Under the pieces are notes generated by a model that was given only the letters and a program-made list of their open reading frames with translations, was not told the DNA's origin and made no database searches. Made by a program: the position numbers and the translations under genes. A stretch of DNA of 34,153 nucleotides from a virus, in IMG/VR virus record IMGVR_UViG_3300037493_006253, positions 1 through 34,153 of that record. One strand, given 5' to 3'. This document shows, one piece after another, positions 6,871 to 31,233 of this stretch. The stretch's first letter is position 1, and the number at the start of each line of letters is the position of its first letter.

Positions 6871-8997
6871 TTACTTGATCTCGCTGAGCGCGAGCGTCCC
6901 GCGCGTGATGATGTAGCTCGCCGGGGTCATCACGTTGCCGTCCACGTCCACGAAGCCCTCGTGGCCCGGCGCCGCCAGCGTCACGTTCGCATAGTCCATG
7001 CCCTTCGTCGCCGCCTTGATGGTGTCATGGACGAACTGCTTGTAGAGGGGCTGCGCGAAGTCACGCCCCCGTAGGACCTCCAGCAGCGCCTGCTCGATGT
7101 CCGCTAGCACCTCAGCCGCCACGTAGCTCGGCACCACCTTGACCGCCACCGCCACGTCCACCGGCACGAGCATCGCGCTACCGTCCGTCACCTGCACGAG
7201 CTGCGTGACTTCCTTAATGCCGTCAAGGTAGGCCTGGAGCCCATAGATGAGGCCCGCTGCGGGGGCCACGTAGTCCCCATCCCCATTCACGCTCACGATG
7301 GGCACCTGCACGTAGTTCGCCTTGCAATCCGCGTCAAACAGCGTCGAGAGGTGCGCCTGGAGGTCGACCACAACCGCAAGGATGTCCGCCTGGAGCTGCG
7401 CCGCGCTCCCCGGCAAGGGCGCGATGGCGTCAGCCGCATTGCCTACCGTCACCGTCGTGCTGTTCACGAGGGCCGTCAGCGTGGCCAAATACTGCGCTAG
7501 GGTGGCCTGGCCCGTGCCCGTTGGGGTGAGCAGCTGCTGGAGGGTAAACCCATAGCCGTCCAGCTTGGTCGCTGCGGATCCGCCGTTGCTGAGGCTCGTG
7601 CTGATGGTGCCCCCCTGCGCCGCCAGCGTCCGCGAGTAGTTCGCCAGCGTCGTGTCGCTGGGGTAGGTGGTCCTGATATAATTGTCGAGGCTCGTCAGCG
7701 TCGTGCCCATCGCCTGATAGGCCGCGTTCCCCGTCGTCATCTCCACTTGTAGCTGCTGCGCCACCACCCGCACATTGGCCGCCTGAACCTCCAGGGCGCT
7801 CCGCAGGCTCCCCATCTCCGCGAGGAGCGCCTGCATCTCTGCAAGGAGATCCTGTGCCGTAGCGATGTCCGCCGCCGCCTCCGCCTCGGCTGGCCCCACG
7901 AGCAACACGTAATTCGCTAGGTAGCCATCGATCTGCTCGCACTCCCCCACGAGGATCGCATCCTCGGCCGAGGCCCGCACGTTGATCGCATAGCCCTTCG
8001 CCACGCGGCCATAAAGGGGGTCAGAAAAGCCGTTGACCTGCGCCTGGTAATCAGTCTGTGTGATGGCCGCCCCGCGCGCCGCGAAGGCGTAGGGGGCCAG
8101 CTTGCGGGCCTCATCCGGCGACTCGGGATCCGCCCCGCCGCTCGCCCCCAACGGGTTCGTGCAGGCGATCTTGATGGCCGCCCCGCCGACGCTCAGCACG
8201 TCAATCACGCTCGTCACGGTGCCCGCCGCGGCCCGCCCCGTCGCCCCGTGGATCAGCGTGTACTGGATCTTGACATCCGCCCCGGCCTCAGGAATGTTCC
8301 CCGCCACGCCATCCCCACACGCCACGGCAGGAGGATCATAGAGGTAGTCCACCTCGTACTGGTTCGTCGGCGTGAAATCGAGGAAGTCGTGCTCGGCCCA
8401 CTCCGCGCCGTCAATCCACACGCGCACGCTCCCCTGCGCGACCCAGACGCCGTTCGCGGGATCCCCGCCCTGCATGCGGAAGCGCTGGTTCTGCGCCCCG
8501 TCCCCCGTGTAGCCCACGGTCCTCGAGGCGCCCTCGCGGCACGCCACGGTGATCGTCGCGGTGCCCGGCGCCAGGAAGGTCGGCGCCACGGTCTCGAAGA
8601 TTAAGCCCGAGGGGCCCCCAAAGCGAAACCCCGCCTGGAGCTGCGCGGGCGCCGGGATCGCTGGGGTGAACGTCAGGGCGAGGTCGACCGTCGCCGCACT
8701 CGCCGGCCGCATCTTGTAGCCGATCTGCTTAACCAGCTTGGCCACCGCGGAATGCGTGCGCGCCGTGTCGAGGTAGCAGTCGCTCGCCACGCGGTCCATG
8801 TACCAGCAGAGCTGCCCCACCGCGTTCGCCATGAGGTCAATGAGCATGATGCCCACCGCGGTCGAGGCATAGTCGTTGTAGATCGTCGCGTACTCGACCT
8901 TGAGCCGGCGCAGCAGGCTATCGAAGATCGACGCGTAGTCCTTCGCCGCGTACTTCACGGCGTTCAGAGGCTTGCGGTCCGCTACGGGGACTCCCAT
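6871..8997 (-). CDS. Baseplate wedge protein, gp6/J-like, with large insertion (708 aa)
   Basis: The start is the ATG at 8995-8997, preceded by AAGGAG; the in-frame upstream extension is Arg-rich shadow sequence of the gene before it. The N-terminus (KYAAKDYASIFDSLL, then STAVGIMLIDLMANAVGQLCWYMDR) is typical of baseplate J/gp6 proteins, which form the ring that triggers sheath contraction. The family hallmark is at ~286-320 (GGADPESPDEARKLAP, then GAAITQTDYQAQV). Residues ~368-560 are an Ala/Gln/Leu-rich, probably coiled-coil insertion inside the conserved C-terminal part, between NYVLLVG at 362-368 and NYVQVPIVSV at 561-570. The gene lies between gp25-like and fibre genes, as expected. Confidence 0.86.
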   Translation of the reverse strand: MGVPVADRKPLNAVKYAAKDYASIFDSLLRRLKVEYATIYNDYASTAVGIMLIDLMANAVGQLCWYMDRVASDCYLDTARTHSAVAKLVKQIGYKMRPASAATVDLALTFTPAIPAPAQLQAGFRFGGPSGLIFETVAPTFLAPGTATITVACREGASRTVGYTGDGAQNQRFRMQGGDPANGVWVAQGSVRVWIDGAEWAEHDFLDFTPTNQYEVDYLYDPPAVACGDGVAGNIPEAGADVKIQYTLIHGATGRAAAGTVTSVIDVLSVGGAAIKIACTNPLGASGGADPESPDEARKLAPYAFAARGAAITQTDYQAQVNGFSDPLYGRVAKGYAINVRASAEDAILVGECEQIDGYLANYVLLVGPAEAEAAADIATAQDLLAEMQALLAEMGSLRSALEVQAANVRVVAQQLQVEMTTGNAAYQAMGTTLTSLDNYIRTTYPSDTTLANYSRTLAAQGGTISTSLSNGGSAATKLDGYGFTLQQLLTPTGTGQATLAQYLATLTALVNSTTVTVGNAADAIAPLPGSAAQLQADILAVVVDLQAHLSTLFDADCKANYVQVPIVSVNGDGDYVAPAAGLIYGLQAYLDGIKEVTQLVQVTDGSAMLVPVDVAVAVKVVPSYVAAEVLADIEQALLEVLRGRDFAQPLYKQFVHDTIKAATKGMDYANVTLAAPGHEGFVDVDGNVMTPASYIITRGTLALSEIK

Positions 8998-9010: not shown

Positions 9011-9427
9011 TCACGGCCCGATCGGGGCGCCCTGGATCGGCACCTGCTGCTGGTACACCTGGTTGTTGATCCGGTACACCACGTCGAGCACGATCGCCGT
9101 GTCCTCCAGGCCCACATCCTTGCCCCGGCGCGCCTCGACCGACAATACCTCAGCACGGGGCTCGAACAAAGCGATCGCGCGCGCCGTCACGGCCGCCACA
9201 CGCGCCTGCGTGAGCGGATCTAAGTTGTCAAAGACGAAGGCCTGCAGGCTCGTCCCAAGGGCCCCGCGCATCACGCGCTCCCCCACGCTCGTCGTCATCA
9301 GCGCCTTGATCGAGTTGAACACCACGGCATCCAGCCCCTGCACCATCATGGGGAAGGCCTGGCTCCCCACCCGGAAGGGGTACGCGATGCTCCGCAGCAC
9401 CGTCGGCGTCGTCGTCGGCACCGGCAT
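9011..9427 (-). CDS. Baseplate wedge protein, gp25/GPW-like (138 aa)
   Basis: The protein begins MPVPTTTPTVLRSIAYPFRV and contains GLDAVVFNSIKALMTTSVGERVMRG near residues 30-55, followed by AFVFDNLDPLTQARVAAVTARAI. This is the arrangement of the gp25/gpW baseplate family (inner wedge component, lysozyme-like fold without activity), including the 'I-x-x-x-L-x-T-x-x-G-E-R' pattern. Length is normal for the family. The ATG overlaps the TGA of the small Pro-rich gene before it (TGATG), so the two are translationally coupled, and the J-like gene follows after 13 nt. Confidence 0.88.
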   Translation of the reverse strand: MPVPTTTPTVLRSIAYPFRVGSQAFPMMVQGLDAVVFNSIKALMTTSVGERVMRGALGTSLQAFVFDNLDPLTQARVAAVTARAIALFEPRAEVLSVEARRGKDVGLEDTAIVLDVVYRINNQVYQQQVPIQGAPIGP

Positions 9428-9585
9428 CAGACGGCCGCCTCGTCGGGGTCATCCAGGGGGCACGACGGCAGCTTGGGCAGCGCCGGGATCTTGGGCAGCG
9501 CCGGGAGGTCAAAGGGGAGCCCCGGCATCGGGATCGCCAGCGCCGGCGGCAACGGCAGGGGCGGGATCTTGCACTTCGTCGCCAT
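9427..9585 (-). CDS. Tiny Pro-rich protein, candidate spike tip (52 aa)
   Basis: This reading frame has a near-perfect AGGAGGT ribosome binding site (9591-9597) 5 nt before its ATG and ends in a TGATG overlap with the gp25-like gene, so it is very probably translated. Another ATG lies one codon upstream, but at only 2 nt from the binding site. The protein is dominated by Pro and Leu with tandem short units (IPPLPLPPALAIP, then LPALPKIPALPKLP) and has Cys near each end (residues 5 and 42) before an acidic tail (DDPDE). It sits between the OB-fold spike and the gp25-like gene, where many contractile tails encode a PAAR-type spike tip, and no PAAR gene is seen here. I infer a tip or spike-associated role. 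Two Cys could bind metal or form a disulphide. Confidence 0.7.
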   Translation of the reverse strand: MATKCKIPPLPLPPALAIPMPGLPFDLPALPKIPALPKLPSCPLDDPDEAAV

Positions 9586-9596
9586 CATCAACCTCC

Positions 9597-9616
9597 TTGC
9601 GTACGCGCGTACGCAA
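9597..9616. repeat. 20-bp perfect palindrome of alternating pyrimidine-purine steps
   Basis: TTGCGTACGCGCGTACGCAA is its own reverse complement. Its inner 18 bases strictly alternate pyrimidine and purine, the pattern that favours Z-DNA. On the transcribed strand it begins 5 nt after the stop codon of the spike gene and touches the ribosome binding site of the small Pro-rich gene. As RNA it could form an 8-bp stem with a 4-nt loop. The 18-bp core recurs exactly at 26222-26239. Confidence 0.85.
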
Positions 9617-9621
9617 CACCG

Positions 9622-10590
9622 TTACCCGATCGACACCACCTCGGACAGCTCCTTGTAGAGCATCGGCGGGGGGGTCGGCCCCAGCGTGCTGGGGGCCCCC
9701 GGCGCCGCGCACAGGTGCTGGTGGATCATCGACCACGCCAGGAACTTCATGCCCCGCACCGCGGGCTCGAACACCGGCCCGGCCCCGAGGCAGACCTTGC
9801 CCGCGTTCAGCCACGCCTTGCCCCCCGCCATCACCGTGGCGTCCCCCGGCGCGCTCAGCGTCGCGGCCCTCCCATCGAGCGCCAGCATGGCCCCGCTCTG
9901 GTTCGCCAGCGTGATCTTGTCCTTGCCCAGCGTGAGCCACGCGAGCACCTGGTTGGTGTCGGGGTCCACGTTCATGATCGTGACGCTCGCGTTCTTCGCG
10001 TCAATCGCGAGGTGCGTGCCGCTCTCCGCCATGAGGAGGATCCCGCCGTCCTTGTCCAGCGTGATCACGCTCCCGCTCTCCACCCCGCTGCCGTCGCCCT
10101 TGGCCAGCGTGATGTGCAAGTCCTCAGGCTTGTCGCCGAACCGCAGGTAGTGCCCCGCCGGCGTCTTGAACCCCTTGCGGAAGGCCTCCCCGCTCGCCGT
10201 CAGGGCCGTCCCCGCGGCGTCCTTGGGCAGCCACCCCCCGAGGTACACGGGCACCGTCATGTCCCCGTGCTCGAACATCACCCACACGGTGTCCCCCACC
10301 TCGGGCGGCACGAAGAGGCCGTGCATCTGCCCCGCCGTCCCCTTCGCGAGCCCCGGCCAGCAGGGGAGCGCCCAGTAGCCCTTCGGCACCTCAGCCTCCG
10401 TCGCCATGCCCAGCGCCGGCACCTGGATGCGGCAACGCCCCCGCTTCTCCTCGTCCTTGTTGTCGACGACGAGCCCCGTATAGAGCCCGTAGTAGCGGTT
10501 CGCGTGGTTCTCCAGGCCGTCCGCGTGGATCGCGTCCATCACGTAGCCCGCGGGGTCGTTCTTGCGGCGGCTGTCGGAGAGGTCGAACAT
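9622..10590 (-). CDS. Tail spike/baseplate puncturing protein, gp5/gpV OB-fold type (322 aa)
   Basis: Residues ~33-120 form the OB-fold typical of T4 gp5 N-terminal, P2 gpV and VgrG spikes (YYGLYTGLVVDNKDEEKRGR, then PPEVGDTVWVMFEHGDMTVPVYLGGW). Residues ~130-260 contain the beta-strand-rich region that follows it in these proteins (TPAGHYLRFGDKPEDLHI, SVITLDKDGGILLMAESG, THLAIDAKNASVTI). There is no lysozyme domain, so host wall digestion at entry is not shown here. The last ~60 residues include MIHQHLC and a Pro-rich linker. It lies 3 nt after the hub gene and upstream of the small tip candidate, forming the central spike operon. Confidence 0.85.
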   Translation of the reverse strand: MFDLSDSRRKNDPAGYVMDAIHADGLENHANRYYGLYTGLVVDNKDEEKRGRCRIQVPALGMATEAEVPKGYWALPCWPGLAKGTAGQMHGLFVPPEVGDTVWVMFEHGDMTVPVYLGGWLPKDAAGTALTASGEAFRKGFKTPAGHYLRFGDKPEDLHITLAKGDGSGVESGSVITLDKDGGILLMAESGTHLAIDAKNASVTIMNVDPDTNQVLAWLTLGKDKITLANQSGAMLALDGRAATLSAPGDATVMAGGKAWLNAGKVCLGAGPVFEPAVRGMKFLAWSMIHQHLCAAPGAPSTLGPTPPPMLYKELSEVVSIG

Positions 10591-10593
10591 CGT

Positions 10594-12006
10594 TCAGGCC
10601 TCCTTCATGGGCTGCGCCTGGGTCTGCGTCTGCGCCAGGTTGCTCGTCTGCGTGGAGCCCCACTTCACCAGCTCCAGCACCGTCTTCCAATCCCCCGGCG
10701 CGTAATTGTGCGTGAGCTTGTTCACCACGTAGGTCGCGTTGATCATCGAGCTGCACCCCGCCACCGCCACCACCGCGGCCGGCTGGATCTTGGGCAGGCC
10801 TAGGGTCGTCACCGTGAGCTGGATCGCCATGCGGTCCGCCGCCCCCACGCCCTTCTCCGCTAGTTCCGCCTGCGCCTTGGCCTGCGCTACACCGCCCGGC
10901 GCGGATACCGCCCGATTCGATGGCACGCCCTTCTTGCCACCGGGGTCCACCTTGACGTCCGCCTGCAGATCCCCCCGCTTGTCATCCTGCGCCTCGGACG
11001 CCACAGCGCTCCCCTTGGGGTCGCCCGGCCGCTCCCCGTCCTTCGGCCAGGTCCACAAGGGCTCTAAAACAAGCCCCGTGTCCTTCTCCAGCATGATCGC
11101 CCGCGTCCCCGCCGTGGCCCCCGGCACGGGCACCGCGTCCCACTTGCGGCCCTCCGCCCACATCGCGGCCCCCCCGCTGAACGACACGTCCAGGATCGGA
11201 TACTGCGCTGGCGTCGCCGTGGGGTCGAAGAGCCCGCGCAGCACTAGGCTGTACGTCGTGTTCTGGGTCGCAGAGTACCCCTTGGGGTAGTAGAAGATCG
11301 CCGGCTTAAAGCTCGACACCGAGGCAATCGCGTAGCCGAAGTGAAAGTCTAGGTTCGCCAGGCTCAGGATGCGCCGCACCGTGCGCATCAACGCCATGCT
11401 GCCCATCACCGCGTAGGCCGCCCCCTCCAGGTCCTTGCCCCCCACGCTGATCTGCTTGGACAGCGCGTCCAGCTTCGCCGCCCCCTCCCCCAATGGGATA
11501 GCCGTGTACCCCATGGCTAGCGCCAGCCCCTCCAGGATCGCCTTGGCCGAGGTCAACGCGAGATCCTCGCCTGGCTTCACATACTCCATCTGCCGCGCGT
11601 CCCGGAAGCTCGCCGTGAGCGACCCGCTCAGCTTGTCGCTGCTCAGCGCAAGCCCATCCCCGCCCTTGCCCAGGAACCCCGCGTAGTCCTCGGTGACCTC
11701 CGTCGCGCTCCCCGCCAGGTAGCCCAGGCGCGCCCGCACGAGGTTGTTGAAGTCAAACGCCCCCTGCTCCAGCAGGTAGATGCCCTCCTGGTAGGGGGCC
11801 TCGATCCCGATCGTGAGCCCGTCATGCATCCCCCCCTTGCTCATGGTCACGCTCACCGAGGTCACGAAGGGGCCGCCCATCACGGCATCGCTCGACGGGG
11901 CGTTCCCCGTGGGCCAGCGCCCCACGTCAAAGACCCACTCCTTGCCCGCCTTGTTGCGGATCTCCACCTGCGCGAAGGGGGCAAAGAAGTCTGCGCTCCC
12001 CGCCAT
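10594..12006 (-). CDS. Baseplate hub protein, gp27/gpD-like (470 aa)
   Basis: The order LysM-type protein, this protein, OB-fold spike is that of gpX-gpD-gpV and of T4-like hub modules. The N-terminus (FAPFAQVEIRNKAG, then VTSVSVTMSKGG) resembles the beta-barrel start of hub proteins. A segment near 93-112 (RLGYLAGSATEVTEDYAGFL) fits their strand-turn pattern, with a D-x-x-GFL ending. Residues ~330-400 are a Gly/Pro/Lys-rich linker, and residues ~435-455 (INATYVVNKLTHNYAPGDW) match the common C-terminal hub motif 'Y-x-V-x-x-x-x-H-x-[IY]-x-x-G-x-W/F'. It would form the trimer that joins the tube to the spike. It begins directly after the stop of the preceding gene. Confidence 0.75.
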   Translation of the reverse strand: MAGSADFFAPFAQVEIRNKAGKEWVFDVGRWPTGNAPSSDAVMGGPFVTSVSVTMSKGGMHDGLTIGIEAPYQEGIYLLEQGAFDFNNLVRARLGYLAGSATEVTEDYAGFLGKGGDGLALSSDKLSGSLTASFRDARQMEYVKPGEDLALTSAKAILEGLALAMGYTAIPLGEGAAKLDALSKQISVGGKDLEGAAYAVMGSMALMRTVRRILSLANLDFHFGYAIASVSSFKPAIFYYPKGYSATQNTTYSLVLRGLFDPTATPAQYPILDVSFSGGAAMWAEGRKWDAVPVPGATAGTRAIMLEKDTGLVLEPLWTWPKDGERPGDPKGSAVASEAQDDKRGDLQADVKVDPGGKKGVPSNRAVSAPGGVAQAKAQAELAEKGVGAADRMAIQLTVTTLGLPKIQPAAVVAVAGCSSMINATYVVNKLTHNYAPGDWKTVLELVKWGSTQTSNLAQTQTQAQPMKEA

Positions 12007-12369
12007 CTAGCGCCCCCCCAAGATCCGGTTGCGCACGTAGTCCGCCGCCGGCACGTAGAGCGTCATCCCCGGATAGATCTCGTTGTCCGGCAGGTCGAGC
12101 CCGTTGCGCAGGGCGAGCACCCACCACAGGGCCTCATCCTGGTAGAACTCCAGCGCGATCTGGTCTAGCCGCTTGGCGCGCCCCTCGATCACCACCGCTG
12201 ACTCGTGGTTGGCCACGTCCGGCAGCGCGGGGGGCTCGAACGGCGTGTAGAACCGCACGTAGGCGTCCACCTCGCTGTCGAACACATACTCCTCGGCCAT
12301 GCGGCGCATCGGCGAGGAGACCGGCGCTTGGAGCGTCCGCAGCGTGTTGCCCTTCCCGAGATCCGCCAT
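12007..12369 (-). CDS. Baseplate LysM-like / gp53-like protein (120 aa)
   Basis: The C-terminal half carries a LysM-like core: RLDQIALEFYQDEALWWVLA, then LPDNEIYPGMTLYVP. The wording RLDxIAxxFYxDxxLWWVxA is that of T4 gp53-type and P2 gpX-type baseplate proteins, which link the wedge or hub rather than bind peptidoglycan. Length fits these small proteins. The ATG lies 8 nt after the tape measure stop, and the stop abuts the hub gene, so it belongs to the hub operon. Confidence 0.8.
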   Translation of the reverse strand: MADLGKGNTLRTLQAPVSSPMRRMAEEYVFDSEVDAYVRFYTPFEPPALPDVANHESAVVIEGRAKRLDQIALEFYQDEALWWVLALRNGLDLPDNEIYPGMTLYVPAADYVRNRILGGR

Positions 12370-12377
12370 CGCCTACC

Positions 12378-15300
12378 TCACTTCGGCGGGGGCGCCGCCG
12401 CCCCGTTGCCCTGCGGGATCTGCGCCCACCCGCTGCCCGCCCCCGGCGTCCAGCCCTTGAGCCCCGCCGTGTTGTCCTTGATCTCCGTGAGCACCTTGCG
12501 CGTCTCCACGCCATCCAGCACCACCGCGTTGATCACGCCGTAGAGCCCGCTCATGTCGAGGCTCGACTTGAGGACCTTCTTGTCGTCCTCGGTCAGGATG
12601 CCCGCGTACTGCGCCGTGATCTTCCCGAAGATCTCCTGGTTGATCGGGCTGTTCTTGAACTCCTCCAAGGCCTTGGCCTGGAAGGCGTCGATCGCGAACA
12701 CGGCCGACTGCTCCAGCACCGTCGCGAAGCCCGTCTCGAAGGAGGCCTGCGCTCCCGTGATGCCGTCCATGAGGCACTCCAGGACGTTCGCGCCGGCGTC
12801 CCATAGCACGTAGCCCGACAGCGGCCCCTCCTTCGGGGGGCTGTTGCCGAAGATCTGGTTGCCAATGCTCTTCGTGAAGGTGTCCCCCACGACCTTTGTC
12901 ATCTGCGGCTCGGCCTCGACCACCCCCTTGCCGACCTCGCCCAAGATCGTGATGCCCGCCGCCGCGGCCTTCGCGATCAGCTCCTGCGAGGGCCCCGCCA
13001 CGCTCTGCCCATAGGCCTCAGCGAGCCGCACCTGCAAGTTGTTCGCCTGAATCATCATCTGGTCGATGTCGGCCTGGCTCTTAGTCGCCCATGCCTTCTG
13101 CAGCGTGTCGAGCTGCTCGTACCGGAACTGGTCCTTGCGCTGCTGAACCTGCCACGGAGCGAAGGCCTTGTCTCCAAACGCGCCCGCCTGCTCCTGCGCC
13201 GCGGCCTTCTGCTCGATCTCCGCGGCCTGCATCTGGAAGGCTGGCACCGCCTGGACCTTGGCAAAGGTCGCCGCCATGCGGCCCATGTCGATCTTCTGCC
13301 CCGAGACCTCACTGACGTAATTGCTCCCCTTCAAACGCCCCGTCTCGCCCGCATAGTCCTTCTGAGTGCGCAACGCGTCCTTGAGCGCCCGGTCCATCTT
13401 GGTCACGTCGCCCGTGGTGCCTGTCCGCCCAAAGTCCTCGTTGATGTTCTGCCGGTCGATGCGCGTAGTCTCCTGAAGGCCCTTGACCTTCTTGTACTGC
13501 GCATCGATCTTCGCCGTGGTCTTGGCGATCTGCTCATCAAGCCCCTTGTTTAGGTAGTCAAACCACGCGTTGATCGCCACCACGCCGATCCCCGTGATAA
13601 CCCCCGCGAGCCCGAGCAGACCGGGGCTTGCCTGGGCCGCGGCCCCGATCCCGTTGAACGCCAGGCCCAGGGCGCCCCCCACCACCTTCGTGATGATCAT
13701 CCCCACGCCAGGGATCTGCGCGGCGAGGCCCCCCATCACCCCCACCATCGCCACCTTCCCGAGGACGCCCGTGTTGTCCCACATCTTCCCGAAGAACGCC
13801 TTGATCTTAGCGATCCCCTGATCGATGGGGCCACCCTCGCTCGTGAGATAGGCCCACGCGTCCTCCCCCGCCTGCGCAATAGCCGGCCACACCGACTCCT
13901 TGAACCACGTGGTGAAATCCACCCACCCCGCCTTCACGTGCGGCACGATCTTGTCCCAGATCGCCCACGCCTGATCCTTGATCTTGATCCACAGGGGCTC
14001 GAACTGCTTCCAGATCTCGTCCCGCGTGGCCTGTGGCAGCATGAACCACCCCGCGATGCCCCCGACGATCCCCGCGAAGGGCCCCATGCCCAGGGTCTCC
14101 ATGAGCGGCGCGATCGACTCGCGGACCTTCCCCACGCCGTCCATCGCCAACTCCAGGCCGATCCCGAACTTCTGGGCGTCCTTGGTGTTCATCCCCATCT
14201 GCTTGCCGAAATGGAGCATCACGCCCTTGGCGCCCATCTGGTCGAATACGGAGTACGCCTTGATGAGCGGCCCCCACGTGGCATCGCTGGCCATGGCCTT
14301 GGCCTGCTTGCCCATCTCCTTGTAGCTCGCGATCTCCTCCTTCACGAACCCCTTGACCTCGGGGCGCGTGATCGCGCGGATGCGCGTCTGGAACATCTCC
14401 TTGGCCATGTCGAGGCCCTCCTGCAGGGTGCGCCCGCTGGAGTAGGAGTCGTTCGCGAACTTCTTGAGGGCCCCATCCGCCTTGACCGTGGCCGTGCTCA
14501 TCTTCTCCAGGGCCGTGGCCCCCTGCGTCGTGCTCATGGCCAGGTAGACCGCATTGCTACCGGCCTCCCCGAAGGTCTCCGTGAGGTCGCCAAGGACCGC
14601 AGCGTCGAGCTGCTTCCCGCTCTGCTGCGCGACCTTCATCCACTTGCCCATCTCGGCCATGCCGGCCGCGGAGTCCTGCGAGCCGAGGGCGATCATGCGC
14701 ATCGCCTCCTCGGTCCCCATCCCGAGGGCGCTGAGCTTCGTGAAGATGTCCGGCATCTCCCCGAGGCCTAGCTGCGCGCGCTCCACGGCCACCTGCCACT
14801 CCAGGAACTTGTTGGAGGTCTCCGAGGCCGCCTTCGAGGCCTCCTCCCCGCTGAGCCCCATCTGGTGATAGGCCCCCGCGAGACGCACCGAGGCCTGCAC
14901 CGTGCCCTGGATCTCAGCCGCCGAACGCATGTGCGTGGCCACCTGCTTAGCGAGGATCGTGTTAAGGCCGCCCATCTGATCGCCCATCTGGGTGAACATC
15001 TGCGCGCCGATCCCGCCCTGATTGCCCATGGCGACCATGTACTCCAAGGTCTGCTTGGCCTGCTTGCCCGTGAAGCCCCACGACGCCACGAGGTCCCCGC
15101 CCAGGGCCCCGAGCTGCTCCGTGGCCATGCCCGTGCCCTCGGCGAGCTTCACGAACTCCTGCGTGCTCATCCCCAAAGCATCGAACACGCTCTTCGAGGC
15201 CTCGCCCGCATTGCGCAGGGCCCCCATCGTCTTGACCACGGTCTCCACGCCCACGTTCATGCCGTAGGCCATGCCGCTGGCCTGCCCCGTGAGCTTCTTC

Positions 15301-15704
15301 AGCTCCGCCCCCGTGACGCCCATCATCGCCAGGGCGGGCCGCGCCTGCTGCGCGTAGCTCGCCCCGATGCTCTCCATGCTGTTGCTGAGATTGCCGCTGT
15401 CCTGCGTGAGGCTGCGGACGCCACTCGCGATCGTCGAGAGGTTGAAGCTGTTGACGCGGTTCCTAACGCTATTGGAGAAGGCCCCCGCGAGGCCCTTGGC
15501 CATGCCCCCGACCCCCAGCGCCGCCTTGCCCGCGCCGCCCGCCACGGCCTTGAGGGCCCCCGCGAGCTTGCCCCCCGCCGCGAGGCCGTTCTGCGTGGCC
15601 AGCCCCTTGTTGATCTTGGTGATCGAGTCGAGCGCAGACCCCATGGCCCGGCCCATGCCGTCATCCCGCGCCCCGAAGCTAAAGGCGAACCCGAGCTTGG
15701 CCAT
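12378..15704 (-). CDS. Tail tape measure protein (1108 aa)
   Basis: This is the longest gene of the window and directly follows the tail assembly chaperone pair, as in most phages. The N-terminal ~110 residues are Gly/Ala/Lys-rich, the middle is long and helical with many Met, Ala and Gln, and there are hydrophobic stretches near ~545-565 (GPFAGIVGGIAGWFMLP) and ~650-715 (VAMVGVMGGLAAQIPGVGMI, GLLGLAGVITGIGVVAI) that could insert in the host membrane at ejection. Near the C-terminus the motif NSPPKEGPLSGYVLWDAGANV is the frequent 'SPPxxGPL' end of tape measures. With the usual ~1.5 angstrom per residue, a tail of roughly 160-170 nm is expected (inference). No peptidase or lysozyme motif was recognised. 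Confidence 0.9.
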   Translation of the reverse strand: MAKLGFAFSFGARDDGMGRAMGSALDSITKINKGLATQNGLAAGGKLAGALKAVAGGAGKAALGVGGMAKGLAGAFSNSVRNRVNSFNLSTIASGVRSLTQDSGNLSNSMESIGASYAQQARPALAMMGVTGAELKKLTGQASGMAYGMNVGVETVVKTMGALRNAGEASKSVFDALGMSTQEFVKLAEGTGMATEQLGALGGDLVASWGFTGKQAKQTLEYMVAMGNQGGIGAQMFTQMGDQMGGLNTILAKQVATHMRSAAEIQGTVQASVRLAGAYHQMGLSGEEASKAASETSNKFLEWQVAVERAQLGLGEMPDIFTKLSALGMGTEEAMRMIALGSQDSAAGMAEMGKWMKVAQQSGKQLDAAVLGDLTETFGEAGSNAVYLAMSTTQGATALEKMSTATVKADGALKKFANDSYSSGRTLQEGLDMAKEMFQTRIRAITRPEVKGFVKEEIASYKEMGKQAKAMASDATWGPLIKAYSVFDQMGAKGVMLHFGKQMGMNTKDAQKFGIGLELAMDGVGKVRESIAPLMETLGMGPFAGIVGGIAGWFMLPQATRDEIWKQFEPLWIKIKDQAWAIWDKIVPHVKAGWVDFTTWFKESVWPAIAQAGEDAWAYLTSEGGPIDQGIAKIKAFFGKMWDNTGVLGKVAMVGVMGGLAAQIPGVGMIITKVVGGALGLAFNGIGAAAQASPGLLGLAGVITGIGVVAINAWFDYLNKGLDEQIAKTTAKIDAQYKKVKGLQETTRIDRQNINEDFGRTGTTGDVTKMDRALKDALRTQKDYAGETGRLKGSNYVSEVSGQKIDMGRMAATFAKVQAVPAFQMQAAEIEQKAAAQEQAGAFGDKAFAPWQVQQRKDQFRYEQLDTLQKAWATKSQADIDQMMIQANNLQVRLAEAYGQSVAGPSQELIAKAAAAGITILGEVGKGVVEAEPQMTKVVGDTFTKSIGNQIFGNSPPKEGPLSGYVLWDAGANVLECLMDGITGAQASFETGFATVLEQSAVFAIDAFQAKALEEFKNSPINQEIFGKITAQYAGILTEDDKKVLKSSLDMSGLYGVINAVVLDGVETRKVLTEIKDNTAGLKGWTPGAGSGWAQIPQGNGAAAPPPK

Positions 15705-15750: not shown

Positions 15751-16784
15751 CTACCGCCGTCGTCGCGCCCGCGCCGTGCTCGCCTCGCGCTGCCCCGCGC
15801 GCCGCTGCTCCATCTCCATCTTCTCCCGCAGCAGCCGCTGGCGCCGGCTGTAGGGCATCGCCATCGCGTCGGTGTAGTTCAACCCCATGTGCTCGATGAG
15901 GGAGAACACATCCGACTCTAGCGCCCCGACGCTGCCGACGGGAAGAAAAAACCCGGCTGTGACACGTCCAGGCTCGCCGTCCACTCATGCTCGCACGCCG
16001 CGCACGCGAACTCCACCTTGTCATCGATCCCGCCCTCGCGCTCATCGAACGCCACCCGTAGGCGCTCGCGATCCCGCAGGGGCAGCGCCTTGAGCGCCCG
16101 GAGGGTCTCCGCCCACCCGCGCTCGCGGTCCAGGGGCCGCCCATCCACGTGCGTCACGCGGGCCGCCAGCGACAGCGTGGCGAGGTCGTCATCGCTGCCC
16201 TTGCGCTTGCGCGCCGCCCACTCCTCGTCCTCCACCCCCATCACGCGCCACACCGCGGTGCGCCCGCTGGGGAGGGGCTCCTCGAAGATCCGCACCGCGC
16301 GATCCGGCATCGCCGTGATCGCCAACTCGCTGAGATCCACCGCGAACGGGGCCTCCTTCCCGCACTTCGGGCAGCCCACCCGCATGTCGTAGAGGTCGCC
16401 CAGGGAGGCCCGCCGCACCGCGATCAGCAGCACCGAGCGGTCCATCGAGGTCAAGACGTGCGCCACCCCCCGCAGGGCCCCACGCCCCGTCACGGTCCCC
16501 AGCTGCACCAGGCAGTTGCCGATCATGCGGTTCAACCGCGCGATCACCGGCCCCTTGCCCGCTAGGATGTCCTCCTCCGTGCCCGACATCTCCTGCACGA
16601 TGTAGGTGAAGTGCACCGTGCCCTCCGCGTCAATATGCCCGCACGGCAGCTCGCCCCCGAGCGTCGTGGCCCGCGGATCGTGCAGGTTCACGCCTGCCTT
16701 CCCCTGCTCGACCACGGGCGCTGGTGCCGGCGCCGCCCCTTCCCCCTGCTCTGCTGGCTGCTCTTCCACGTGCTGCTTCGTCAT
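15751..16784 (-). CDS. Tail assembly chaperone, -1 frameshift fusion product (about 344 aa)
   Basis: The product reads the 288-residue frame from 16784 through codon 280 (ending at 15945), slips back one base and continues from 15945 to the TAG at 15751-15753, adding 64 residues. The added part (GALESDVFSLIEHMGLNYTD, then MPYSRRQRLLREKMEMEQRR and an Arg-rich end) looks like a genuine chaperone C-terminus. It has no independent start with a good binding site (its frame opens only with a GTG inside the upstream gene). This is the arrangement of lambda G/GT and of most long-tailed phages, where the G and GT products guide tube polymerisation on the tape measure. The fusion is inferred from the slippery site and position; the ratio of products cannot be read. 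Confidence 0.75.
15918..16784 (-). CDS. Tail assembly chaperone / T4 gp26-like protein with Cys pairs (288 aa)
   Basis: This is the unshifted product. After a low-complexity Pro/Ala/Glu start, residues ~45-130 (GTVHFTYIVQEMSGTEEDIL, then SMDRSVLLIAVRRASLGDLY) resemble the T4 gp26-type baseplate/chaperone family in which an E-E-x-x-L segment is followed by an 'M-D-R-x-x-L-L-x-x-R' segment. Cys138/Cys141 (CPKCGKEAPF) and Cys261/Cys264 (CAACEHEW) form two CxxC knuckles that could share one zinc ion. The start ATG overlaps the stop of the ribbon-helix-helix gene (ATGA). Being directly upstream of the tape measure and carrying a programmed frameshift points to the chaperone role; a baseplate role is the alternative. 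Confidence 0.78.
   Translation of the reverse strand: MTKQHVEEQPAEQGEGAAPAPAPVVEQGKAGVNLHDPRATTLGGELPCGHIDAEGTVHFTYIVQEMSGTEEDILAGKGPVIARLNRMIGNCLVQLGTVTGRGALRGVAHVLTSMDRSVLLIAVRRASLGDLYDMRVGCPKCGKEAPFAVDLSELAITAMPDRAVRIFEEPLPSGRTAVWRVMGVEDEEWAARKRKGSDDDLATLSLAARVTHVDGRPLDRERGWAETLRALKALPLRDRERLRVAFDEREGGIDDKVEFACAACEHEWTASLDVSQPGFFFPSAASGR
15945..15951 (-). other. Programmed -1 ribosomal frameshift slippery heptamer (T-TTT-TTC)
   Basis: Read on the minus strand in the zero frame of the 288-residue protein, the codons are GGT TTT TTC TTC, so the heptamer T TTT TTC fits the X-XXY-YYZ rule with both tRNAs re-pairing after a one-base slip. The -1 frame is then open for 64 codons to 15751, while the zero frame ends about 27 nt downstream at 15918-15920. 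A short CCCG/CGGG pairing lies just downstream and could act as a weak stimulator. Confidence 0.78.
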
Positions 16785-17049: not shown

Positions 17050-17976
17050 TCAGGCGTCCTCGGGGGCCAGCTCCGACGCCACGAGGATGGCCGCCTCGCG
17101 CTCTACCTCAACATCCCCCTCGTCAAGGTCGTAGGCCACATCAGGCGGTTCATGCAGTGGTGTCAACCCATCCAGGATCGCCATAACAAAGAACCGCCCA
17201 TAAAAGTATAAACGCCCCTTGCCCGTGATCCGCGTCGTGCGGTCGATCACTTTTGCGCCCTCTTCCGTCTCGCGCACGTGCTCCACGATCACCATGATGC
17301 GCTGCTCGATACTGCGCTGCGTGGGCTCATTGCGCCGAGGCCCCCGCTTGTGCACGAAGCCCTCCTCACGCAGCCACGCAAAGAACACGTTCTGCCCCAC
17401 GCGCTTCGTCGTACCCTGCGTGATCGCCTTCGCCACCTGCCCCACATAGTACGTGGTCGGGGAGTCCATCACGCTCGCCGCAAAGCTCACGAATGGGGCC
17501 GAACGCTCCTGGTAACGCACGAGCTGCTGCACCTGCGCCTCCGCCTCGCGCCGCCCCTTGGCCTCCACGAGCCACGCCTCGGCCGAGGCGATCGGATCGT
17601 TAAAGTCGGGCAGCCCCGGCGGCACCGCGCCCGGCATTTCATACCGCCCCGTCTTGCGGATGCTGGGCAACACCTCCCCGGAGATCCACATCTGAAAAGG
17701 CAAGGCCCTTGGCTTATCGCTTCTCGCCAAAAAGAAATAGAGACCCTGCTCGGAAAGGCAAAGCATCTCGCGTATTCCCGCACTCGTCCCAAACGGTTTG
17801 GGACAACGCCACTGATCTGGAACTTTGGACATCAAACTGTTGATATCGCTGTTCGGCGAATACTCCAACACCTCAGCCACATCCTTCGCCACAAACCATG
17901 GTTCCCCCTCAATTACTTCAATCCGCACCTGATTGCCCTCGAACTCGAACGCCTTTGCGATCGCCCTCTCGTTGCT
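17050..17976 (-). CDS. Phage antirepressor, Bro-N plus KilAC-type domains (308 aa)
   Basis: The start is the ATG at 17974-17976, with AAGGAG (17986-17991) upstream; the longer in-frame start would run through a regulatory gap. Residues ~8-112 are a Bro-N domain (FEFEGNQVRIEVIEGEPWFV, KDVAEVLEYS, LSEQGLYFFLARS, FQMWISGEVLPSIRKTGRYE). Residues ~180-280 look like the KilAC/ANT DNA-binding domain (YYVGQVAKAI, NVFFAWLREEGFV, then TRITGKGRLYFYGRFF). Antirepressors of this type relieve repressors or act as regulators in temperate phages. Here the gene sits alone inside the structural region, isolated from the cassette before it by a terminator, and it is somewhat AT-richer in its N-terminal half, which suggests a moron-type insertion. 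Confidence 0.85.
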   Translation of the reverse strand, partial: SNERAIAKAFEFEGNQVRIEVIEGEPWFVAKDVAEVLEYSPNSDINSLMSKVPDQWRCPKPFGTSAGIREMLCLSEQGLYFFLARSDKPRALPFQMWISGEVLPSIRKTGRYEMPGAVPPGLPDFNDPIASAEAWLVEAKGRREAEAQVQQLVRYQERSAPFVSFAASVMDSPTTYYVGQVAKAITQGTTKRVGQNVFFAWLREEGFVHKRGPRRNEPTQRSIEQRIMVIVEHVRETEEGAKVIDRTTRITGKGRLYFYGRFFVMAILDGLTPLHEPPDVAYDLDEGDVEVEREAAILVASELAPEDA

Positions 17977-17993
17977 CATTACCGTCTCCTTGT

Positions 17994-18035
17994 GTGTTAG
18001 GTGGCCCACCATGGCCACCGCGGCCACCCTAACAC
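17994..18035 (-). promoter_or_regulatory. Inverted repeat in the antirepressor leader
   Basis: The arms are GTGTTAGGTGGCC (17994-18006) and its near-complement (18022-18035), which differ only by one extra base; 15 nt separate them. The inner arm ends 2 nt before the ribosome binding site of the antirepressor gene. There is no T-run, so it is not a simple terminator. It could be an operator for a repressor, or an RNA hairpin controlling translation. Confidence 0.55.
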
Positions 18036-18058
18036 CACTCAGGCGAAATATCGACGAC

Positions 18059-18095
18059 AAAAAAAATGGCCGCTGGTGATGGTGCACCAACGGCC
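18059..18095 (-). terminator. Intrinsic (rho-independent) terminator after the small-protein cassette
   Basis: On the minus strand, an 11-bp stem with a single mismatch (GGCCG-T-TGGTG pairing with CACCA-G-CGGCC, 6-nt loop, 18068-18095) is followed after one base by a run of eight T (18059-18066). This is the only clear intrinsic terminator in the window. It lies ~96 nt after the stop of the histone-like gene and ~80 nt before the antirepressor start, so it separates the upstream late operon from the antirepressor unit. The rest of the 17977-18190 gap holds the inverted repeat and no reading frame that I can support. Confidence 0.8.
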
Positions 18096-28682: not shown

Positions 28683-28691
28683 ATTATACCA
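28683..28691 (-). promoter_or_regulatory. Possible promoter, extended -10 (TGG-TATAAT) over the sheath stop codon
   Basis: The last sheath codons read TTG GTA TAA T, which contains a perfect TATAAT preceded by TGG, the extended -10 pattern of sigma-70-type promoters. No good -35 hexamer is seen at 16-18 bp. It could provide extra transcripts for the small genes and the tube. The host is unknown, so the sigma factor rule is assumed. Confidence 0.35.
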
Positions 28692-31233
28692 AGGCCCTCT
28701 GTGAGAAACGGAATACGATGAATTCCGCAGGCTTGTTCGGCGCGAGGCCCACGTCGACGAACATGATGCCCTGGTCCACGGTGTTCTGCGGGTTGTTTGT
28801 CCGGTCGCAGATCACGAAGAAAGCCTCCTTGGGCGAGGTCCCCGCGAAGTAGTTCTGCTGGAAGAGGCCAAGCAGGAACGTGTCGAGCTGGAGCTTCACG
28901 CGGCCCCAGAGCTGCGGGCCGTTATTCTCGAAGACGTGCACGTGGGTCGCGTTGAACACGCTCTTCTCCACGAACTGGAAGAGGCGCGTCATCTGGATGT
29001 AGGGCCACTCGCCGCCCGCGATGTCGAGGGTCTTGGCGCCCCAGATCACGCGGCCCGTCTGCGGCCAGCTCACGAGGCAGTTGAGCTTGTCCTGGTAGCA
29101 GATGCCCACCTGCAACGGGGTGAGGTCGCGCTCCAGGCCGATCTGCCAGCTCAGCGCGCCATCGCCCGTGCCGGCCGGCGCCTTGCCGACGTTCTTGTTG
29201 ATGTCGGTCGTCGCGAAGCGCCCCGCCACGTGGCCGCCGCAGGGCAGGTTGATGGCCGCCTGGGTCACGGGGTCGGTCACGCGGATGTGCGGGTAGTACA
29301 CCGCAGCGTACTTCGTGAAACGGCCCAGCGTGAACTTCTTCCAGTTCACGGCCTCCTGCGGTTCCAGGCCCTCCGGCGCGGTGAAGATCGCGAACTTGTC
29401 CTTGCGGAGCATGGCGTAGTCGATGACGTCCGTGCAGACCAGCTCGTCGGTTTGGAAGTCGGCGACCACGACGCTCATCATCGCGTCCACCTGGTCGAGG
29501 GCGTAGAGGCCCTTGTAGTCCGCGACGAGCGTGGCGCCCGTGACATCGCTGCGGTCGAGGGCCGAGCCGTCCGCGCCGTCGAAGAACTGCACCACCACGG
29601 CCGCGCCGGGCTGCGTGTAGTAGGTCGCGGTCTGCGGCTTCGTGATCGGGGCCTGGGCGGGGTAGGTGTCTGCCGTGGGGCCCGCGGCCGGGTTGCCCGC
29701 GATCTTCCACGTCAGCGTGCAGGCGCCCGTGGTGTAGTCCACGCGGTTCGTGCCATTGCTGTTGAGGGCGTAGGCGCCGCAGGGGCGCTGCAGGCTGAGG
29801 TTGCCGTTGCCATCGTCGATCACGACGGGGCCGTAGTAGAGCTGCGTGATGCGCACCGCTGCCACCCCGTCGAACGTGTCGGCGAGCCCGCTCACGTCAA
29901 GAGCCAGGGCGCCCGTCAGGTAGTTCACGGTACCCACGGTGTCGCCCGTGCAGTTGCCGGCCACGACCACCTTGAGGTTGCCCGCGCCGTCGTCGCCCGC
30001 GATCTTGGCGCCGTCCCCGTCCAGGGTGAAGCTCACGAGCACGCCCGCCGCCACCGAGGTCTTCGCGGTCGAGGTGTTGAGGTGGAGCTGGGTCGGCGTC
30101 GCCGGGGTCCAGGCCCACGTGGTGTCCGTGATGAGCGGGATCGTCGTGATGATCGGCAGCGGGCTGTGCTTGAAGCCGAGCTGCATCGCCAGGGTAGTCT
30201 TCGCCACCGAGGTGCCGATCTGGTACACGAACTCCTTGTTGGCGCCATTGTAGGCCGGGGAGTTGCTGACGTCCCTGGCCGCATAGTGGGTGCCCGCCAG
30301 CTCGGGGGGCAGCTCGCGGTTGAAGGCCACGACCGCGGCGATGTCGGAGCCCGCGCTGAGGTCGTTGAGCACCGTGGCGATGAACTGCGGGCTGCTCGCG
30401 TCATCGAGCACCACCCCCTGGTAGGTCTCGATGGTGTTCCAGCCCTGGATCTTCTCGACGTACTCGTCGATGGTCACGTCAAAGCGCGTGTAGCTCGCCG
30501 TCGCGGCCACGTAGTAGTCGGGGGTCCCGCTTACGACGGCACGATAGCTGTTGCCCGCGAGGCCCGGCCACTTCAGGTCGAAGCGGAAGGTCTCGTAGAC
30601 CCAGCTCGCTGTGAGGAATTGTCCCGCGGGGAAGTCGGCTGGCGTGCCAAAGGTGAGGTACACCTCGCCGGTCTCGTAGTCGATCGAGCCCGTGGTGTCC
30701 ACGCCATCGTCGAACCCGCCCGTGCCCGTGATGGCGAAGGTGCCATCGCCGTTGTCGGTGAAGGTCCCGATCTTCGGCACGACCTCGCCATCCGTCGTAG
30801 TCAGCACCAAGGAGACGGCCAGCGTGTAGGGGCTGGGGCCGTAGCTGCCGTGCGGGACCACGGGGGCCTTGGGCAAGCTGAAGCTGTAGCTCACCGCGCT
30901 GTCGCCCTCCACCACCTCCATACCTTGGACGTCCTTGGTCAGGAAGCAACGCGCCTTCACGGCATCGGCCTCATGCACCACACGCACGAAGTACAGGGTG
31001 GAACCGCCATTCTGGAAGAAGGCAAAGGCCTCCGTCGGGGCCAGCGATGCCGCGGTGAAGTCGCCGAACTTCGCGGTGAACTCCTGGAAGGAGGTCACGA
31101 TGGTCGGCTTGTTCGTGGGGCCCTTCTTGGAGAACCCGATCAGGCCGAGGTTGCTGGTGCTCACGCCCTGGATGGGGCCCGGCCCACTGCTGCGCTCCTC
31201 AATGTACACGCCCGGATAGTTACGCTCTGGCAT
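28684..31233 (-). CDS. Tail sheath protein, enlarged by beta-domain insertions (849 aa)
   Basis: The N-terminus (PGVYIEERSSGPGPIQGVST, then GFSKKGPTNKPTIVTSFQEF) and the C-terminal domain (KYAAVYYPHIRVTDP at 641-655, PCGGHVAGRFATTDINKNVG at 664-683, WGAKTLDIAGGEWPYIQMTR at 731-750, FVDVGLAPNKPAEFIVFRF near the end) are clear sheath hallmarks. The C-terminal domain is the conserved core that binds the tube and neighbours during contraction. The protein is longer than many sheaths. Insertions at ~115-235 and ~395-545 hold three copies of a short beta unit, (N/D)-D/G-x-G-x-(L/F) followed after ~15-25 residues by G-x-(I/V)-(D/N)-Y-x-T-G, at 158-194, 411-446 and 472-508. These probably decorate the tail surface. 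A GGAGGG site precedes the ATG. Confidence 0.93.
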   Translation of the reverse strand: MPERNYPGVYIEERSSGPGPIQGVSTSNLGLIGFSKKGPTNKPTIVTSFQEFTAKFGDFTAASLAPTEAFAFFQNGGSTLYFVRVVHEADAVKARCFLTKDVQGMEVVEGDSAVSYSFSLPKAPVVPHGSYGPSPYTLAVSLVLTTTDGEVVPKIGTFTDNGDGTFAITGTGGFDDGVDTTGSIDYETGEVYLTFGTPADFPAGQFLTASWVYETFRFDLKWPGLAGNSYRAVVSGTPDYYVAATASYTRFDVTIDEYVEKIQGWNTIETYQGVVLDDASSPQFIATVLNDLSAGSDIAAVVAFNRELPPELAGTHYAARDVSNSPAYNGANKEFVYQIGTSVAKTTLAMQLGFKHSPLPIITTIPLITDTTWAWTPATPTQLHLNTSTAKTSVAAGVLVSFTLDGDGAKIAGDDGAGNLKVVVAGNCTGDTVGTVNYLTGALALDVSGLADTFDGVAAVRITQLYYGPVVIDDGNGNLSLQRPCGAYALNSNGTNRVDYTTGACTLTWKIAGNPAAGPTADTYPAQAPITKPQTATYYTQPGAAVVVQFFDGADGSALDRSDVTGATLVADYKGLYALDQVDAMMSVVVADFQTDELVCTDVIDYAMLRKDKFAIFTAPEGLEPQEAVNWKKFTLGRFTKYAAVYYPHIRVTDPVTQAAINLPCGGHVAGRFATTDINKNVGKAPAGTGDGALSWQIGLERDLTPLQVGICYQDKLNCLVSWPQTGRVIWGAKTLDIAGGEWPYIQMTRLFQFVEKSVFNATHVHVFENNGPQLWGRVKLQLDTFLLGLFQQNYFAGTSPKEAFFVICDRTNNPQNTVDQGIMFVDVGLAPNKPAEFIVFRFSQRALV

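Follow-up and report, generated by a model that had tools for sequence, protein, structure and literature searches.

The window analysed here is the whole of a 34-kb viral sequence (34,153 nucleotides), in which the tail genes in question lie on the minus strand. In the order of transcription, genes for a probable tape measure protein, a LysM/gp53-like protein, a hub protein and a spike protein are followed by the gene for a 52-residue Pro-rich protein and then by gp25 and gp6/J genes. The probable tape measure protein (12378..15704, 1108 aa) was named from its size and position alone and has no family match. The gp53-like small wedge protein (12007..12369) shows a weak LysM match, and the baseplate hub protein (gp27/gpD-like, 10594..12006) matches phrog_196 and phrog_52. 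The gpV/gp5-like central spike (9622..10590, 322 aa; PF04717, E 2.5e-16) has its Phage_base_V OB domain at residues 37–120 in the Pfam search, and its residues 290–292, encoded at 9715..9723, form an HQH (HxH) apex motif. Beyond the Pro-rich gene (9427..9585) lie the genes for the gp25-like (9011..9427; PF04965, E 1.2e-11) and gp6/J-like (6871..8997) baseplate wedge proteins. For the latter the conserved MGVPV was taken as the start, the longest ORF beginning upstream of it, at 9156. Near-identical sister contigs of 161 and 168 kb (spike 98% identical) and of 56 kb (spike 95% identical) were available for comparison. A BRO-N/KilAC antirepressor-like gene (17050–18090, minus strand; phrog_130, E 2.6e-57) is also found among the tail genes, with a T4_baseplate-like gene (15918–16784) on one side and the tail sheath gene on the other. 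The sheath gene (28684–31233, minus strand) encodes an unusually long protein of 849 aa.

The 52-residue ORF runs on the minus strand from an ATG at 9585–9583 to a TGA at 9429–9427 and encodes MATKCKIPPLPLPPALAIPMPGLPFDLPALPKIPALPKLPSCPLDDPDEAAV. The protein consists of an N-cap (MATKCKIP), one repeat of about 36 aa, a C-cap (SCPLD) and a tail of seven residues, with cysteines at positions 5 and 42. A preliminary description of this DNA had pointed to a strong ribosome binding site, to a stop/start overlap with the gp25-like gene and to the units IPPLPLPP and LPALPKIPALPKLP with flanking cysteines. All of these proved exact: a Shine-Dalgarno sequence AAGGAGG (9592..9598, minus strand) precedes the ATG by 6 nt, the two genes share one base (TGATG), and the cysteines are C5 and C42. 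A second in-frame ATG one codon 5′ of the start is absent in the sister contigs. A perfect 20-bp palindrome, TTGCGTACGCGCGTACGCAA (9597..9616, minus strand), is located between the spike stop codon and the Shine-Dalgarno sequence, just 5′ of the latter. A 6-bp stem with a GCGC loop can be drawn in 3/3 sister alleles, with G-U pairs and one two-sided change; the folding energy of this hairpin is not better than that of shuffled sequences.

The gene is kept in the three sister contigs (L002–L004) with scattered substitutions, both synonymous and non-synonymous: six and four, respectively, between the window and L004, two and five between the window and L002/L003. Since these counts are too few for a firm dN/dS, the gene call leans on synteny and on the family described below. 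Pro-rich frames are common in the GC-rich window, where a loose filter retains 20 stop-to-stop frames, and PxφPxCPφD is seen a single time there, against a mean of 0 in Markov-1 simulations. Collapse of a longer gene during assembly is unlikely because a single repeat is seen in all four contigs and no exact repeat within the window gene is longer than 17 nt.

Relatives were searched for by scanning IMG/VR with the back-translated C-terminal motif PxφPxφPxCPφD. The scan returned 94 stretches, about 45 of which are distinct family proteins in uncultivated phages. These share an MSxC start, a proline about every third residue and CP[LI]D at or near the C-terminus, and the window protein likewise begins with M-x(2-4)-C and carries C-P-[LI]-D in its C-terminal part. 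Both cysteines and the final Pro-x-Asp are invariant among 37 aligned three-repeat members. The upstream neighbour is a Phage_base_V protein in 25/43 members, many of the remainder being cut by contig ends, and the downstream neighbour is GPW_gp25 in 29/43 and Sheath_initiator in 2/43; Pfam searches on its neighbours place the window gene in the same slot, after a gpV-type spike and before a gp25-type gene. The similar Pro-rich small proteins that the preliminary description had mentioned in baseplate clusters of other myoviruses thus have a counterpart in these approximately 45 relatives, and the short genes that it had proposed to look for between gpV- and gp25-type genes are numerous. Two neighbouring ORFs were noted in passing. 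A 238-aa ORF directly upstream of the Pro-rich gene of L059 (3975–4691) resembles by eye a chitosanase-type hydrolase, and an ORF in the gp25 slot (probably L016, 417–2003) contains an intein/HNH domain (Intein_splicing, E 1.6e-16).

To avoid circularity, loci were also gathered by spike similarity alone. A Pro-rich gene comes next to the spike in 16/16 relatives of the window spike, three of which are the sister contigs. In a second spike group (n = 11), the four closest spikes have the Pro-rich gene next to them and the other seven do not. The 52-residue ORF is a real gene: the other Pro-rich stop-to-stop frames of the window would fit a chance frame in GC-rich DNA, a reading refuted by the comparative evidence (ribosome binding site, conserved termini, retention in sisters, syntenic Pro-rich genes at every spike-first locus, three-repeat homologues) and left with next to no probability. 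As judged from termini and gene order, it is a short member of an apparently unnamed Pro-rich family encoded by many uncultured contractile-tailed phages.

Direct homology searches with the 52-residue protein or a three-repeat member against Pfam, PHROGs, NCBIfam and PDB gave no match. A tblastn search in phages with the same queries also gave none, BLAST low-complexity filtering having probably masked the query. A PHROG with no assigned function, phrog_31248, weakly matches 7/37 members (best 1e-8), which composition may explain, and a profile search of PDB yielded nothing beyond chance matches of low-complexity or leucine-rich type. No paper describing a Pro-rich spike-companion family was found in a literature search. 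The family appears to be unnamed: apart from the weak matches to one unannotated PHROG, it was found neither in Pfam or NCBIfam nor in a solved structure or a paper. It is absent from the near-spike loci of RHph_TM40, LIS04, DP-2017a, IME392, NCTC12673, GXN1 and S-CREM1, the cultured phages whose spikes are nearest. The single occurrence of the motif in 299 Pseudomonadota genomes was judged to be due to chance, and L112, L113, L079, L103 and L104 were excluded as chance or pure composition.

Self-comparison revealed three tandem repeats (unit of 32–45 aa, typically about 36) in 40/43 complete members. Of the other three, L083 has two repeats and two distinct sister sequences have one each. The window protein departs from the usual form in carrying one repeat and is a third one-repeat sequence beside these two. 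Scans in which the motif was kept fixed and only the length was varied found three one-repeat records (all from the window clade), one two-repeat and 12 three-repeat records. An ungapped alignment matches the window protein, up to CPLD, to the final repeat of three-repeat members. Its best ungapped 30-mer against L100 scores 135, as compared to 61 ± 9 (maximum 86, n = 200) for shuffles in which non-Pro residues were permuted and Pro positions kept fixed. In a tree of the spikes, those of the one-repeat clade fall into one supported group, and the rows closest to it are spikes from phages with three repeats; the enclosing node is weak (73/53). The window clade has likely lost two repeats. Repeat number does change in nature, since L083 (4366–4620) and L015 (2847–3224) have identical spikes and Pro-rich genes of two and three repeats, respectively. 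The difference is exactly one 41-codon repeat, a natural in-frame deletion. Assembly collapse is an unlikely cause of the L083 form because exact repeats within the L015 gene do not exceed 12 nt. The two-repeat L083 counts against a strict three-fold rule.

The preliminary description had regarded the peptide as unlike PAAR tips and had seen no PAAR protein. Indeed, the 52-residue protein matches no Pfam family, the PAAR profile (PF05488) included, and no PF05488 gene was detected in the window. A separate PAAR gene elsewhere in the genome, named there as evidence against its proposal, was likewise undetected in the 161-kb and 168-kb sister contigs. PF05488 was not detected in 25 phage records (19 carrying the family and a six-record check with more large contigs; sizes including 161–177 kb), and the same detection was positive in Listeria phage LIS04. 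In 12 phage records, Tox-PAAR-like (PF13665) gave no match and its positive control matched, whereas DUF4280 (PF14107) gave 0 matches with a positive control that likewise gave none.

The premise that a tip is missing is nevertheless weakened by the spike itself. H290 and H292 are invariant in 18 aligned spikes of the group, and HxH is found in 26/33 rows of a wider spike set (one row, L014, being read in the wrong frame). In the spikes of P2, phi92, Mu and Milano, HxH binds iron and the apex is formed by the spike itself (PMC10811340); those of P2, Mu and Milano make their own apex with no PAAR (PMC10811340). Being a Phage_base_V protein that has HxH close to its C-terminus, the window spike is classed with the HxH iron type (P2 gpV, Mu gp45, Milano gp27), the iron being predicted from the motif. 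Because HxH spikes form their own iron apex, a lack of PAAR is what one would expect and is hardly informative on the peptide. Some spikes beside family members have no HxH, so that no single apex geometry covers them all.

We propose, tentatively and at a little under an even chance, that the Pro-rich protein is a virion component which lies on the three-fold baseplate axis and attaches to the spike trimer at the C-terminal spike apex or close to it. Spike, hub and central-axis baseplate parts are three-fold symmetric (PMC10811340). The model draws on the fixed slot beside the spike, the spike-first loci and the predominance of three repeats; presence in the virion, location at the apex, three-fold pseudo-symmetry, the role of the Cys pair and stoichiometry are all inferred. 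By homology the spike is trimeric, and the typical three-repeat chain would lay one repeat on each spike chain. The terminal cysteines, one before the first repeat and one after the last, would then meet and close a ring, by a disulfide or a metal, and the one-repeat form of the window clade would do the same job as three copies. Against this model, an iron-type apex made by the spike itself does not require an extra tip. AlphaFold2 monomers of three-repeat members (pTM 0.16 and 0.19) were uninformative and too poor for fold searching. A more specific version, which we hold to be possible and rather doubtful, is that these proteins form a PAAR-independent second class of spike-apex protein, in which a three-repeat chain ring-closed by its two terminal cysteines matches the spike trimer and the one-repeat form of the window assembles as a homotrimer.

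The synteny and the three repeats would suit any three-fold part, and it is unlikely, without being far-fetched, that the protein sits on the three-fold axis away from the apex, its extended Pro-rich strands lining or stapling the hub lumen, the spike collar or the end of the tape measure. The HxH apex already present on the spike would fit such a site, as would the contacts between Pro-rich segments of a tail spike protein and of wedge proteins in Milano (PMC10811340). However, the gene always adjoins the spike, not the hub or the tape measure, and its slot is the PAAR slot in LIS04; binding at the apex is preferred over other three-fold sites because of this position.

An assembly factor outside the virion, encoded beside its client and aiding the folding of the spike trimer or its loading into the hub, appears improbable. 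A small low-complexity protein encoded beside the spike behind a strong ribosome binding site, for which AlphaFold finds no stable fold alone, would suit this role, but trimer-matching tandem repeats and two invariant cysteines would be unusual in a chaperone, and no dedicated chaperone is known to be required by the gpV- and gp5-type spikes of model phages. We give equally little credence to a true membrane-piercing tip that replaces PAAR, with the peptide as the leading point of the spike. The gene occupies the position of the PAAR gene of LIS04, and PAAR was detected there and in none of the 25 records, but self-capping HxH spikes make that absence uninformative. Of the two options offered by the preliminary description, a different type of membrane-piercing tip and a spike-associated peptide, the latter is the better supported.

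Contractile tails, tailocins and T6SS all depend on a device at the tube's front end, and PAAR caps and iron-loaded self-capping spikes are the known solutions. That an apparently unnamed Pro-rich partner recurs next to the spike across many uncultivated phages points to a third component, one that gene callers and profile searches miss because it is short and of low complexity. The three- and one-repeat forms lead to a clean, testable prediction of stoichiometry. If the PAAR-independent class is real, they would represent a natural conversion between a pseudo-three-fold monomer and a true trimer.

The window spike resembles the self-capping iron spikes (P2 gpV, Mu gp45, phi92 gp138 and Milano gp27) in its OB domain and C-terminal HxH. 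A Pro-rich companion encoded between the spike and gp25 genes is not known from P2, Mu, phi92 or Milano. Slot proteins of 228–310 aa likewise directly follow the spike in L137, in the bacterial L144, in Alishewanella phage Slickus01 and in Xanthomonas phage PhiXhv-12. In L137, Slickus01 and L144, these proteins carry at the N-terminus a Cys-x(33-36)-Cys stretch with some prolines, similar to the C5-x36-C42 of the window protein. They differ in a long, mostly helical-looking remainder, and their relation to the Pro-rich family is a lead, with no demonstrated sequence similarity. Hydrophobic proteins of this size were noted after the spike at L137 4026–4712, L144 1498–2268 (a bacterial genome), L007 7527–8381 and L110 7692–8624; the first three have the N-terminal Cys-x(33-36)-Cys and belong to no Pfam family. 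As opposed to PAAR (PF05488), the Pro-rich family has no PAAR motif or detectable homology to it, carries two end cysteines instead of a His/Cys zinc site, and is found beside spikes with their own HxH apex. PAAR proteins (T4 gp5.4, T6SS PAAR and the product of the LIS04 PAAR gene) are nevertheless also small, and their genes immediately follow that of the spike. A single PAAR chain of pseudo-three-fold shape caps the spike trimer, an arrangement that the three tandem repeats of the Pro-rich family would parallel.
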